From assembly GCA_944324245.1 (NCBI GenBank), contig CALUVO010000031.1, positions 1 through 64,000 on the forward strand: a DNA stretch of 64,000 nt, read 5' to 3'. The notes under the pieces are model-generated. The model ran no database searches and had not been told where the DNA came from. It saw nothing but the letters and a program-made list of their open reading frames with translations. A program made the translations under genes and the position numbers. This DNA comes from Candidatus Gastranaerophilales bacterium. GTDB taxonomy: Bacteria > Cyanobacteriota > Vampirovibrionia > Gastranaerophilales > Gastranaerophilaceae. This document shows positions 51,804 to 57,055 of this stretch, piece after piece; position 1 is the stretch's first letter, and each line of letters begins with the position of its first letter.

Positions 51804-51966
51804 AACTAACCTCCAAATTTGCCCTTGCGGGTACATAACCTTTTTATCTAACCTTACTTATATAAAAACAATCTATGAAGCAAAATTGCTTTTTGAAAAA
51901 TATTTTCTTAACATTTGTTAATATTTTCTACTTTTTTAAATGTTAAAATTGTTATGGGAGTATGGC

Positions 51967-54900
51967 ATGTTAATACAGGGTAGCACTGTTTCTGACAGAA
52001 CGGATTATTTAGTAAATGCATATATCAACCTTTTAAATAAAGGAGTTGATGCTTCAGAAATTCTTGTTCTCTGCTTGAATTCTTATAAAAAAAACTTGTT
52101 TTTAGACGAATTACATAAAAAGCTGCGGATACTTCACTATGAAAATCCTAAAATTTATACATTTTATGGTCTTGTGTATAACACAATAATGAATTACTGG
52201 CCGTTAATTGAAAATACAATAAATAACGGAAATCCTGCTATAATTCCTAATCTTTCTGGTCTTGAGATATCTCAGATATTTTTCAAAAGTGCAATTAAAG
52301 AGGTTGGTTTTAAAGACTACAACTCAAAGCTTAATCTTATACATCAGCTGTTTAGAAGATATTCTCTGATAATGAATAATAATCTTACCGATAACGATGT
52401 AGAAATCCGTTCCAGAATATTGGGGGAACAATTTGCTTTAGATGCTAAAAAATCTATAGATATTTATAAGAAAAAAACTCTTGAATTTAGAGCTTTTGAT
52501 TATATAAGACAGCTTGGACTTTTCCAGTATTTATATCAAAACAGCAGTGTCTTTAAAAATATAAAATATCTGATTCTTGATGATGCAGATGAGATTACTC
52601 CTTTTGAGTTTGATTTTATAAAATACATAAAACCGCTGTTGAAAGATGTTTATATCGCCTATGACTTTAGGGGCGGCAGTCGTCTCGGATTTTTAAATGC
52701 AGATATTGATGTTGTAGAAAAGATAGAAAAGCTTTTTAATACAGAGAAAATAACAGTACTTGATAATATAGAAACAGCACAGGCTGATATGGTGCTGCTG
52801 TCTTTTTCAAGACGTCTCGAAATGATAAATGAAGTGTTAAAAAATATAAATTCATTGATATCATCAGGTGTATCAGCCCGTGATATATCTATAATTACAC
52901 CTGTTATTGACAAATCTTTAAAATTTGCAATATCAGAAGCTTTTGATTCAAAAGATATCAGTTATCAGTATTTTTCAGGCAGTGAAAAATTGGTTTCAGT
53001 TCCGATTGTAAAAAATATTTTATTTTTATTAGACATTGCAGCAGGTTTAACATTGGATGTCTATAAAATTCGCTCGATTGTTATTGAAATATTAAAGATT
53101 CCTCTAAAATATTGTATGAAGCTAGTTACTTCTTTAAAATCAGGAATATCTATAGAAAGCATTGATTTGGGAGTTAAAGAGTACAATGAGCGTTTAAATA
53201 AGCTATTAAATGTCATTAACAAAATAAAATCCGCAGATATGCTTTTATCGGAAAAAATCTTTTATATTTACAACAATCTTGTACATCTTGAACCATCCGA
53301 TATACCACAGCTTCAGTTGCTAAATTTCTTTGTTAAACAGATAGAAGATTTTGAGTCAGTATTTACGGAATATAATCTTAATCCGGCATTTCAAAAAACT
53401 TTTTTAACGCAGCTGGAAAATTCTATTGTTTCCGAGAATCCATCTTCTGCACCGGAAATAAAGGAAAATGCTATACGAATAGGTACTGCTCAAAAAATCA
53501 TAGATTATTCTCTAAAAACAAAATATCAGTTCTGGCTGGATGTTTCTTCAAACGAGTGGATTAAAGATGATTTTGGCATGCTTTATAATGCCTGGGTCTT
53601 TCAAAAATCATGGAACAAAAATGAATTTACTTATGAAGACAATATTGCATTGACTGATTTAAAGATAAAAAAACAGTTGAGAAAACTGTCTCTTTTGTGT
53701 TCAAAAAAGATTTATGCTTATTCGAGCCTTTTTGATATGGAGGGAAATGAAAACTTTCAAGGTATAGAAGATTATCTGGCACAAAAAAATGAGAATAAAA
53801 ATACTGAAATTGATTTTAAATTTGTGCCCAGAGAAGACCAGAAGGAGGTGCTTGAATATAAAGATGGAAAACTTTCGGTATCGGCTGTCCCTGGAGCCGG
53901 AAAAACTACAATTCTGCTTGCTTTGATTATAAAGCTTATTCAATCTGGTGTAAAAAGTGAAAACATATTTGTGCTGACTTTTATGGATTCTGCTGCAAGA
54001 AATTTCAAAGAGCGAATCAAATCAGCCTGTCCTTCTCTTGAAAAAATGCCGAATATTTCGACAATTCACGGTCTTGCTTTACGAATCCTGAAAGAAAACT
54101 CAAATTTTGTTAAGGCAGGTTTAAATGAGGATTTTGAGGTTTGTGACGATAATCTCAGACAAAAGATAATCAGAGAAATTATGTATAAAATGCAGCTTGA
54201 TTCTGATGATTATGACAAATATGAACGCGCTGTATCAATGTTAAAACTTTCTGAAATCAAAAAAGTTCCTTTTGTAAAAGATAATGAGGTTGGCCAGTTT
54301 TTAAAATTTTACACAGCATACAATCAGTATCTCAAGAATATGAATATAATTGATTATGATGATATGCTATGCTATTGCGTAAAAATACTTGAGGAAAATA
54401 AAGATATAGCTTTTTATTATCAATCTTTGTGCAGCTATTTGATTGAAGATGAAGCTCAGGATTCATCTTCAATACAACAGAAATTGCTGGCTATATTGAG
54501 TGCACGCAGCAAAAATCTTATCCGTTGCGGGGATATAAATCAGGCAATTACAACAACTTTTACAAATGCTGATTTAGAAGGTTTCAAAAAATTTATAAAA
54601 ACATCACACAACGTGACAATGAATCATTCACAAAGATGCGCCAAAGAAATATATTCTTTGGCAAATGATTTGATTGATTATTCTTTAACTGACAAGAATT
54701 TAAACAACTCATTTTTCAATATAAAAATACAAGGTATTGAAGACAAAAATCCTCAAAATCATGATTCTGTAGAAGCTTGTATTTTCGAAGATTATAAAGA
54801 AGAAAGAGCTTTTATCCTAGAAAAAATAAGAAAAATATTTTCTATAAATCCAGATGCTTCAGCGGCTATACTTGTTCGTAATAACTATAACATTGAAGAT

Positions 54901-55803
54901 TATGCACAATTCTTCACAAGTTACGGATACAATGTCATTACAAAGAATGATACACTTTCTTCGCAGCCTGTATTTTTACTGATATATTCAATTTTGAAAT
55001 TTTGTGCTCATCCCTGGCAAAATGCCATGGTTGTTGATGTATGTGAAGTACTAAAGAAACAGCATCTTGTTTTATTTTCAAAAGAAGAAACCGCATTTAT
55101 AAAAAATCTTGACAAACCTTTTATTATGCTTTCAGAGCAGGAACTTTCATCCAAAAATCTTGTGCAACTTTTGTGGGATTTAAATTACTGGCTAGAACAG
55201 TCAAGTCTTGATATAGAAGAATTTGCAATAAAAACTGGCTGTTACTATTACTCTTCTGAAATAGAAAAATCAAATGTATATATGATTTCTCTGCTGCTAA
55301 AAAAACTTTTCTATCAATATAAAGACAGAGACATTCTGCTCGAAAGGCTGGAAGAGTTTTCTCAAAAGCCTGTTTTGAGTAAGTATAAATTTTTTAATGA
55401 TAATGAAGCACACAAATCATATAATAAAGGGCAAATCCTTATAATGACCTATCATAAATCAAAGGGTGATGAGTTTGATTATGTATTTATACCTCAATTA
55501 TGCGAGGAGATTTTACCTTTTGATTTGAAAAATATAAAAATTAAATCAAAAGAACGGTTTCTGGAGTCAGTAAAAGCGTTAAAATCTAATTACAAAAGAA
55601 AAGATGAATATCAGCTAAAGCGTTTTATTGCTGAAGAGAATATGAGACTTTTGTATGTTGCTGTTACAAGAGCAAAACAAAAACTTTATATTACCTGCGC
55701 AAAGAAATATAAAAAATATTCCAAGCTAAAAGAAGCAAAAACGTCCATAATATTCGAAAAAGTCTTGAGTAATAGCGGAGTTGTGTTGAATGACAAGCGA
55801 TAA
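51967..55803 (+). CDS. Tandem UvrD-like helicase: degenerate N-half, active C-half (AddB-AddA-like)
   Basis: A 1278-residue protein; the ATG at 51967 has GGGAG six bases upstream, better than the in-frame ATG nine codons earlier. The N-terminal half (about 1-630) follows an SF1 helicase layout: LIQGSTVSDRTDYL where Walker A should be (no GKT), YLILDDADEITPF as a Walker B echo (about 203) and a UvrD-type 2A region. The C-terminal half is an apparently active UvrD-like helicase: AVPGAGKTT (about 640), YLIEDEAQDSS, RCGDINQAI, IMTYHKSKGDEFD and VAVTRAKQKL (about 1230). Inactive plus active helicase is the AddB plus AddA pattern. Expected role: end-processing in double-strand break repair. Confidence 0.85.
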   Translation: MLIQGSTVSDRTDYLVNAYINLLNKGVDASEILVLCLNSYKKNLFLDELHKKLRILHYENPKIYTFYGLVYNTIMNYWPLIENTINNGNPAIIPNLSGLEISQIFFKSAIKEVGFKDYNSKLNLIHQLFRRYSLIMNNNLTDNDVEIRSRILGEQFALDAKKSIDIYKKKTLEFRAFDYIRQLGLFQYLYQNSSVFKNIKYLILDDADEITPFEFDFIKYIKPLLKDVYIAYDFRGGSRLGFLNADIDVVEKIEKLFNTEKITVLDNIETAQADMVLLSFSRRLEMINEVLKNINSLISSGVSARDISIITPVIDKSLKFAISEAFDSKDISYQYFSGSEKLVSVPIVKNILFLLDIAAGLTLDVYKIRSIVIEILKIPLKYCMKLVTSLKSGISIESIDLGVKEYNERLNKLLNVINKIKSADMLLSEKIFYIYNNLVHLEPSDIPQLQLLNFFVKQIEDFESVFTEYNLNPAFQKTFLTQLENSIVSENPSSAPEIKENAIRIGTAQKIIDYSLKTKYQFWLDVSSNEWIKDDFGMLYNAWVFQKSWNKNEFTYEDNIALTDLKIKKQLRKLSLLCSKKIYAYSSLFDMEGNENFQGIEDYLAQKNENKNTEIDFKFVPREDQKEVLEYKDGKLSVSAVPGAGKTTILLALIIKLIQSGVKSENIFVLTFMDSAARNFKERIKSACPSLEKMPNISTIHGLALRILKENSNFVKAGLNEDFEVCDDNLRQKIIREIMYKMQLDSDDYDKYERAVSMLKLSEIKKVPFVKDNEVGQFLKFYTAYNQYLKNMNIIDYDDMLCYCVKILEENKDIAFYYQSLCSYLIEDEAQDSSSIQQKLLAILSARSKNLIRCGDINQAITTTFTNADLEGFKKFIKTSHNVTMNHSQRCAKEIYSLANDLIDYSLTDKNLNNSFFNIKIQGIEDKNPQNHDSVEACIFEDYKEERAFILEKIRKIFSINPDASAAILVRNNYNIEDYAQFFTSYGYNVITKNDTLSSQPVFLLIYSILKFCAHPWQNAMVVDVCEVLKKQHLVLFSKEETAFIKNLDKPFIMLSEQELSSKNLVQLLWDLNYWLEQSSLDIEEFAIKTGCYYYSSEIEKSNVYMISLLLKKLFYQYKDRDILLERLEEFSQKPVLSKYKFFNDNEAHKSYNKGQILIMTYHKSKGDEFDYVFIPQLCEEILPFDLKNIKIKSKERFLESVKALKSNYKRKDEYQLKRFIAEENMRLLYVAVTRAKQKLYITCAKKYKKYSKLKEAKTSIIFEKVLSNSGVVLNDKR

Positions 55804-56461
55804 CCAAATATATACACTAAATAAATTACAAATGTACGATGAGTGTCCGCAGAAGTATAAACTCTGTTACATTGATAAAGCACATGTCATTGAGCCTATT
55901 TCCAAAACAAAAAGCGGGAATAATCTACACAATCTTATTAATTACTATTTAAAGGGAATGGATGTTTCAAAACTTATAGATGTTTTGACCCAATCTGAAA
56001 AACTACTCTGGTACAATTTTAAAAACAGTGATATTTCAAAACACAAATGCTATGCAAGTGAATATGCTTTCAATGTGAAAATTGATGAATACTGGCTTAC
56101 CGGCAGAATAGACGCATTGTTTGAAACAAATGACGATTGCTATATTATTGCAGATTGGAAAACAGGTGATAATTTTTCTCCTGAAAATGTTAAGTTTCAG
56201 ACCTCATTTTATCTTTTATGTATGTATGAAATTCTGAGGTCAAAAAATCTTATTAAAGAGCCGGATCAGCTTTCATTACACTATATAGATCTTGCCTCAG
56301 ACAGTGTTATAAAAATCAAATTTGATGATGACTTGTACAGGCAGTATAAATCTTCGATTTTATCTGTTATCAACAAAATCAATGAAAACAAAACATTTTT
56401 CTGCAATAAATCTGATAAATGTAAATATTGCAAATATTACAGAGTCTGTCCTTATTATTAG
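55790..56461 (+). CDS. Fe-S PD-(D/E)xK nuclease of the AddB/Cas4 type
   Basis: A 223-residue nuclease. Active-site residues: His47 (NNLHNLI), Asp108 (GRIDALF), Asp122 and Lys124 (ADWKTG), followed by the QTSFYLLCMYE helix. Four cysteines form the iron-sulfur clamp: Cys19 (YDECPQKYK) and the C-terminal C211-x2-C214-x5-C220, the exact spacing of AddB and Cas4; Cys205 is extra. The start overlaps the tandem helicase gene by 14 bases, so the two are translationally coupled and probably form one complex. No cas genes are present, so Cas4 function is unlikely. Confidence 0.87.
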   Translation: MTSDNQIYTLNKLQMYDECPQKYKLCYIDKAHVIEPISKTKSGNNLHNLINYYLKGMDVSKLIDVLTQSEKLLWYNFKNSDISKHKCYASEYAFNVKIDEYWLTGRIDALFETNDDCYIIADWKTGDNFSPENVKFQTSFYLLCMYEILRSKNLIKEPDQLSLHYIDLASDSVIKIKFDDDLYRQYKSSILSVINKINENKTFFCNKSDKCKYCKYYRVCPYY

Positions 56462-56485: not shown

Positions 56486-57055
56486 TTAATCCAGATAAAA
56501 AGCCGTTATAACTTTATGAGATTCTTCAGCATACTCAATAGCTTTGTGCAATGTATTTGATGTGTGAGACAGGAAACAAATCAACTGCTGACAGTCATCA
56601 ATAATTTCACGGTTACAAATACGGCTTGCATCAGCAAGTGTCATCATAGCTCTGTCAGCATGTTCAATAATATTCGGTACACCGATAAGCTGATCCTGTA
56701 CATCAGAAGGCTGCTGACCGATTGTTTGCGGAAGGATAACTTTCAACTTTTCAGGGTTTGCTTTCATTGCACCTCTGATAGTTGCAGCATTAGTACCTGA
56801 AGAACCGCCTGATGTGATTACTGTATTACCTTGAGAAACCAATGCAAAAGAAAGTGTCTCAATAATTTGCTGATGAGTAATAGGCAAGTTTCTGCTGCCG
56901 ATTATTGCTATTCTTTTTTCTGACTGCTGAATTGTAGCAAGTTCCATTGCGAGCTGATCAACAGTATTTGCGTCATCTTCAGAGACTTTGTCCAAATCAT
57001 CAATAGGAACCATAATTGATGATTGTTCTTGAATTTCTTTGTTTTCTTCTGACAT
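56486..57055 (-). CDS. SLOG/DprA-like Rossmann protein (cyanobacterial type)
   Basis: A 189-residue protein. After an acidic N-terminus comes KRIAIIGSRNLPITHQQII, VSQGNTVITSGGSSGTNAATIRGAM and KLKVILPQTIGQQP, a SLOG-superfamily nucleotide-binding fold related to DprA and LOG proteins. NREIIDDCQQLICFLSH and KVITAFYLD complete it. It matches closely, as I recall, a cyanobacterial family annotated as DNA recombination-mediator-A-like. It is half the size of DprA and lacks its DNA-binding additions. It lies convergent to the nuclease gene and divergent from pcrA, which is a DNA-repair setting. Confidence 0.83.
   Translation of the reverse strand: MSEENKEIQEQSSIMVPIDDLDKVSEDDANTVDQLAMELATIQQSEKRIAIIGSRNLPITHQQIIETLSFALVSQGNTVITSGGSSGTNAATIRGAMKANPEKLKVILPQTIGQQPSDVQDQLIGVPNIIEHADRAMMTLADASRICNREIIDDCQQLICFLSHTSNTLHKAIEYAEESHKVITAFYLD

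Follow-up and report, generated by a model that had tools for sequence, protein, structure and literature searches.

A fused two-helicase chain and a separate Fe-S nuclease in Gastranaerophilales as a candidate three-part DNA end-processing system of Cyanobacteriota

Introduction

Cyanobacteria are widely engineered through homologous recombination, yet many of those outside Prochlorococcus and marine Synechococcus are without recBCD (PMC5101192), and studies of how Synechocystis repairs breaks have been described as lacking (PMC11063404). A pair of overlapping genes from a Candidatus Gastranaerophilales bacterium, which belongs to a non-photosynthetic, gut-dwelling group of Cyanobacteriota, raises the question of which helicase-nuclease serves in such organisms. 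The pair lies in a stretch of 64,000 nucleotides (the window; contig C31 of a 2.04 Mb assembly that is 85% complete) and encodes a long helicase chain followed by a small nuclease. The first-pass annotation, made from the letters alone, had read it as an AddAB-like machine in which the nuclease of AddB had been cut off and that of AddA lost. Here we ask what kind of enzyme this pair represents, how far it extends across the phylum and how it compares with the known end-processing machines.

The helicase chain

The helicase gene runs on the forward strand, as do all features of the pair described below, from 51967 to its stop codon at 55803 and encodes 1278 residues. An upstream ATG at 51940 is also in frame; the start at 51967 was preferred because homology among relatives begins there (MLIQG) and a Shine-Dalgarno-like GGGAG sits 6 bases upstream of 51967. 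The C-terminal half (C-half, residues 625–1278; 53839–55803) is a UvrD-like SF1A motor with a complete motif set, as seen from motif conservation and from its matches to the Pfam families UvrD-helicase (PF00580, E = 1.9e-48) and UvrD_C (PF13361, 4.2e-20) over residues ~632–1255. The Walker A sequence AVPGAGKT (53884–53907) and the motif II sequence DEAQD (54448–54462) are invariant in 16 relatives, across which motifs I, II, III (GDxNQ), V and VI vary little or not at all. According to Pfam, the C-half reaches its end at residue 1278 without a nuclease domain.

The N-terminal half (N-half, residues 1–613; 51967–53806) was assigned through its predicted structure. Its first 630 residues match no Pfam or NCBIfam family, and a PDB search with the single sequence gave no match; a profile of the N-half picks up UvrD with an E value of 9e-5. 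The AlphaFold2 model, built from 23 homologues (mean pLDDT 86.8, pTM 0.83), has UvrD and AddB at the top ranks of a Foldseek search, and its alignment with VIA-align, covering residues 1–609, gives Z values of 28.8 for UvrD, 23.9 for AdnB (570 residues at 5.0 Å) and 22.6 for AddB (563 residues at 5.7 Å). As modeled, the N-half is a whole SF1A helicase fold of the UvrD/AdnB/AddB kind and not an unrelated fold, the outcome that the first-pass annotation had named as counting against its reading. Its description of the 1278-residue chain as a degenerate helicase half joined to a complete UvrD-like half agrees with Pfam, motifs and fold alike.

In an alignment of 27 N-halves the ATPase site of this half looks dead, the P-loop being decayed in the genus of the host and the DExQ of active SF1A motors gone everywhere. 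The window carries GSTVSDRT at the place of the P-loop (51979–52002) and DDADE at the motif II position (52579–52593), where the catalytic Glu of DExx is missing, and the Gln of motif III is absent. An intact P-loop (GxxxxGK[ST]) is seen in 14 of the 27 N-halves, including those of basal families and photosynthetic cyanobacteria, and relatives that belong to basal families or to other orders retain GPxxSGKT. The proposed lack of a Walker A in the N-half holds for this chain, but as a general trait it does not, the loss being specific to the lineage. DExQ occurs in none of the aligned N-halves, even those with an intact P-loop, and the dead helicase is visible at successive stages of P-loop decay. 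Where measurable, dN/dS is ~0.05–0.17, with values for the N-half (0.11–0.17) comparable to those of the other parts; this half is under constraint and appears therefore to be kept for a function other than ATP hydrolysis. AddB and RecC have SF1-fold domains without most or all of the helicase motifs, and these domains recognise Chi (PMC4824097).

The Fe-S nuclease

The second gene (55790–56461) encodes a 223-residue PD-(D/E)XK nuclease of the Fe-S type (PF12705, PDDEXK_1, 6.6e-18). Its ATG at 55790 against the helicase stop at 55803 confirms the separate nuclease gene with a 14-base overlap that had been noted. The active-site residues extend from D108 (GRID) to D122 and K124 (DWK) (56111–56161), and the CX2CX5C element is formed by C211, C214 and C220 (56420–56449), which together with C19 (55844–55846) are the expected Fe-S ligands. 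H47, E91, D108, D122 and K124 are invariant in 21 relatives, as are C19, C214 and C220, and C211 is found in most of them. The best fold matches of the AlphaFold2 model (pLDDT 90.8) are the AdnA nuclease and Cas4-like nucleases, with similarity also to the nucleases of Dna2, ExoV and MGME1, and the profile of the nuclease finds AdnB (7e-8). The cysteine spacing had been called AddB-exact: it is indeed there, but it is not specific to AddB, since the local AddB proteins, the helicase-nuclease fusions and one AddA nuclease (G039) have the same or similar terminal cysteine sets and a related Fe-S module is present in Cas4 (PMC5704561).

The nuclease matches end before the CX2CX5C region in ten genomes (G024, G042, G057, G238, G249, G271, G289, G314, G322 and G341), and in their genera the Fe-S cluster may, to judge from the matches, have been lost. 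The photosynthetic nuclease gave no match in the PDB at 1e-3; entries 9iab and 9iac, tried as its orthologue, were dropped, being titled as Argonaute-associated Cas4.

Gene architectures and distribution

Nearly all Gastranaerophilales sampled have the helicase gene at full length, with the nuclease gene adjoining it in most; this adjacency and the low dN/dS point to more than a chance neighbourhood. The fused helicase gene also occurs in a second group of Vampirovibrionia (L048, L050). Deep non-photosynthetic lineages have three overlapping genes in the order N–C–nuclease (L074, L106, L107, L109, L111, L119), and photosynthetic cyanobacteria have N (666–798 residues), C (750–811) and nuclease (about 257–318) as stand-alone genes at scattered sites. 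Photosynthetic status was checked in 57 genomes through a reaction-centre family, which is present in all 42 presumed photosynthetic genomes and absent from those of the deep lineages and Vampirovibrionia. The nuclease is a separate gene in every architecture seen, and N–C–nuclease is the order of seven unfused loci, plasmid pSR56 of Salinibacter among them (see below). The N–C fusion of the window is probably a derived state. The fusion and the seven unfused loci argue that the parts act together, and the fusion in Vampirovibrionia suggests, by extension, that the separate photosynthetic N and C proteins work together. The helicase-nuclease plan is here split into its smallest parts.

Across 292 Cyanobacteriota (cut-offs of E up to 1e-20 for N and up to 1e-4 for the nuclease), N was found in 243 and the nuclease in 245. 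Both are present in 239 genomes and neither in 43, with 10 discordant, some weak nuclease matches being possibly cross-matches to AddB. Four N-positive genomes have no detected nuclease. Two genomes of genus g68 (G261, G309) keep the full helicase gene, and the system nuclease was not detected in them. Neither the N-half, the system nuclease nor RecC was found in family f12 (G086, G091, G096, G303, G307).

Distribution of RecC

RecC (PF04257) occurs in 40 of the 292 genomes: all 35 of family f40, four of family f17, and G142. When the two lists were combined by hand, N and RecC were found together in 5 genomes, N only in 238, RecC only in 35 and neither in 14. The coexisting cases are the f17 members and G142, and the RecC-positive, N-negative genomes all come from f40, in which there is no N, no system nuclease and no strong match to the C-half (best values of about 1e-22 to 1e-26, the level of an ordinary UvrD). 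As f40 is one clade, it counts as approximately one event and not 35, and the complementarity may therefore be a single replacement. The f40 genomes are photosynthetic, measure 1.6–3.7 Mb and probably represent the Prochlorococcus/marine Synechococcus family; recBCD is reported in these two groups and is patchy or less conserved in other cyanobacteria (PMC5101192). The RecC family has no match in the genome of the host, whose assembly is 85% complete, and there is no recD neighbour in the 64-kb window.

Genomic context

Just 3′ of the nuclease gene and on the same strand, recJ is found in the deep loci L106, L107, L109, L111 and L121, and also in L114 and L122. Of 20 photosynthetic loci taken from the top of the nuclease ranking, many of them belonging to one family, 12 have recJ in this position, at distances of up to 2.1 kb, and the other 8 have none nearby. 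Within the window recJ does not adjoin the pair. The Vampirovibrionia tested have recJ, yet not adjacent, and none was found in the incomplete assembly of the host. Beyond the phylum, plasmid pSR56 of Salinibacter ruber M8 (Rhodothermota; L139, NC_014028.1, 10001–17884) carries N (717 residues, E = 2e-103), C (772 residues, 4e-94), nuclease (294 residues, 2e-40) and recJ in a row, the sole copy seen outside Cyanobacteriota in a sparse sampling of other phyla. This unit with recJ is among the strongest context evidence. An Ilyobacter match (H2), considered as a further outside copy, was rejected as it has no system neighbours.

The neighbours of the pair in the window are housekeeping genes that include infB, truB, rbfA and pcrA. 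A truncated DprA-like protein (SLOG fold) is encoded on the reverse strand at 56486–57055 and matches PF02481 just under the family cut-off (E = 7e-7). A DprA-like gene adjoins the pair in the genus of the host; in L074 and L068 it is found close to genes of the system, and in G027 it stands beside pcrA; its linkage to the pair is not constant.

Origin and coexisting end-processing enzymes

All C-halves form one clade (100/99) in a tree of 47 motors, separate from PcrA, local AddA and helicase-nuclease fusions, and the system nucleases group together (91/86; 99% of bootstrap trees) in a tree of 38 nucleases, apart from the AddB nucleases of the same genomes, both trees having few outsiders and leaving out actinobacterial sequences. 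A second helicase family of many Gastranaerophilales (L125–L128, L133–L135) has a single chain of ~1000–1035 residues, in which the UvrD motor is intact and an Fe-S nuclease makes up the C-terminal part, and forms a clade of its own.

A canonical addAB or recBCD elsewhere in the genome, with the pair as a defence or plasmid system, had been named beforehand as counter-evidence. Its first part is borne out for addAB, as contig C40 (L011, 3525–8562) carries recA followed by an addB–addA pair, but the pair of the window is chromosomal, belongs to the core of the order and has no defence-like neighbours within the 64 kb. The AddB-type protein of C40 (843 residues) has a nuclease with CX2CX5C and no N-terminal P-loop region; the AddA-type helicase (836–854 residues) is without a nuclease domain, although the AddA of G039 does carry one. 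The pair is therefore not the sole such machine in its own genome. The suggested survey of relatives gave a divided result: the pair is common in the order and no AddB-type match was found in eight near-complete Gastranaerophilales, G027, G028, G031, G038, G043, G048, G050 and G056 (99% complete), but the AddB type is present in 12 of 12 tested genomes of the host's genus. In the eight AddB-less genomes the single PDDEXK_1 match is the system nuclease, and these genomes may have no other enzyme of this type.

Discussion

These observations are probably best accounted for by a helicase-nuclease of three parts that prepares DNA ends for RecA by resection, in the manner of RecBC or AddAB. By analogy with those enzymes, the C-half motor would burn ATP and unwind DNA from the broken end, presumably in the 3′-5′ direction. 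The N-half would ride alongside the motor and guide, split or read the opposite strand, as the dead domains of AddB and RecC do. In the putative complex the Fe-S nuclease would dock on N and C and trim the unwound strand so that a 3′ tail remains, onto which RecA might be loaded. RecJ and RecFOR would probably finish the work, and some Chi-like control may be envisaged.

The alternative that survives best, and one that we consider unlikely, is a helicase-nuclease of DNA repair or replication with substrates other than double-strand breaks, such as a Dna2-like processor of flaps or gaps that partners RecJ at stalled forks or during natural transformation. The recJ neighbour would suit it, as would the likeness of the nuclease to Dna2, ExoV and MGME1 and the DprA-like gene that adjoins the pair in the host's genus and occurs close to genes of the system in L074 and L068; yet a dead and a live SF1A helicase with one RecB-family nuclease make up the inventory of RecBC, and in f40 the absence of the system coincides with the presence of RecC. 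Less probable still, by a clear step, is a Gabija/GajB- or Cas4-like defence system that destroys invading DNA. The near-universal presence of the parts, their tree-like inheritance across the phylum, the low dN/dS, the housekeeping neighbours, the absence of a phage match and the recJ linkage all fit repair instead; in favour of defence are the plasmid location of the sole copy seen outside the phylum and the best PADLOC models, GajB for the motor and Cas4 for the nuclease, but these models describe UvrD helicases and Fe-S nucleases in general, and no GajA-like partner was seen in the vicinity. That the pair is a rearranged AddAB, its AddB nuclease detached and its AddA nuclease lost as initially proposed, is hardly credible: AddB does rank high among the structural matches of the N-half, but UvrD and AdnB are at least as close, motor and nuclease form clades apart from local AddA and AddB, the nuclease is already separate in the deepest lineages and on pSR56, and the NCBIfam AddA equivalog scores 111.9 bits, below its cut-off of 707.65.

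As for the standing of the proposed three-part end-resecting enzyme, the chances are about even that it constitutes a fourth class beside RecBCD, AddAB and AdnAB, with three subunits, ancestral to Cyanobacteriota, acting as the main resection enzyme in RecBCD-less model cyanobacteria and partly fused in Vampirovibrionia. There is a real chance that the system, as an unrecognised class, answers what resects breaks in cyanobacteria without RecBCD. No account of such a three-part system was found in the literature covered, in which subscription journals and preprints are thinly represented. With three candidate genes named per genome, the dead helicase outside any Pfam or NCBIfam family and the other two within generic families only, the question of break resection in cyanobacteria becomes directly testable.

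Comparison with known systems

The joining of two helicases in one chain beside a free nuclease differs from AddAB, RecBCD and AdnAB, as the first-pass annotation had recognized. With Gabija GajB and the Cas4 family the set shares matches to generic profiles of UvrD helicases and Fe-S nucleases; it is unlike them in its core-gene inheritance, in that neither CRISPR nor Argonaute features accompany it in the window, and in the lack of a nearby GajA, no such ATPase-nuclease partner being found on reading the neighbouring ORFs of the window. The nuclease comes closest to AdnAB, to AdnB in profile (7e-8) and to AdnA in fold, the N-half aligns with AdnB, and both systems have UvrD-like motors; however, AdnA and AdnB each hold motor and nuclease in one chain, whereas here one nuclease is free and two helicase halves are fused.

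AddAB (RexAB) likewise has an inactive helicase partner, an active SF1A motor and an Fe-S nuclease of the RecB family, and in the present set the SF1 helicase domain of the partner is apparently inactive, judged from its fold and motif states at the sequence level. AddA joins helicase and nuclease in one chain, whereas the C-half of the window has no nuclease domain; AddB joins an inactive helicase and an Fe-S nuclease, whereas here the nuclease is always a separate gene. Further differences are that there is just one nuclease, that the motor is not of the AddA type and that the helicase halves are fused; the NCBIfam AddB model has no match to the pair.

RecBCD shares with the set one dead helicase, one live motor and one nuclease, which is the inventory of RecB and RecC. 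Unlike in RecBCD, there is no RecD in the set and no RecC family member in the host's own genome, the nuclease is not joined to the motor, and the dead helicase is without a dead nuclease domain. The three-part set may be an overlooked counterpart of RecBCD, occurring mostly where RecBCD is missing.
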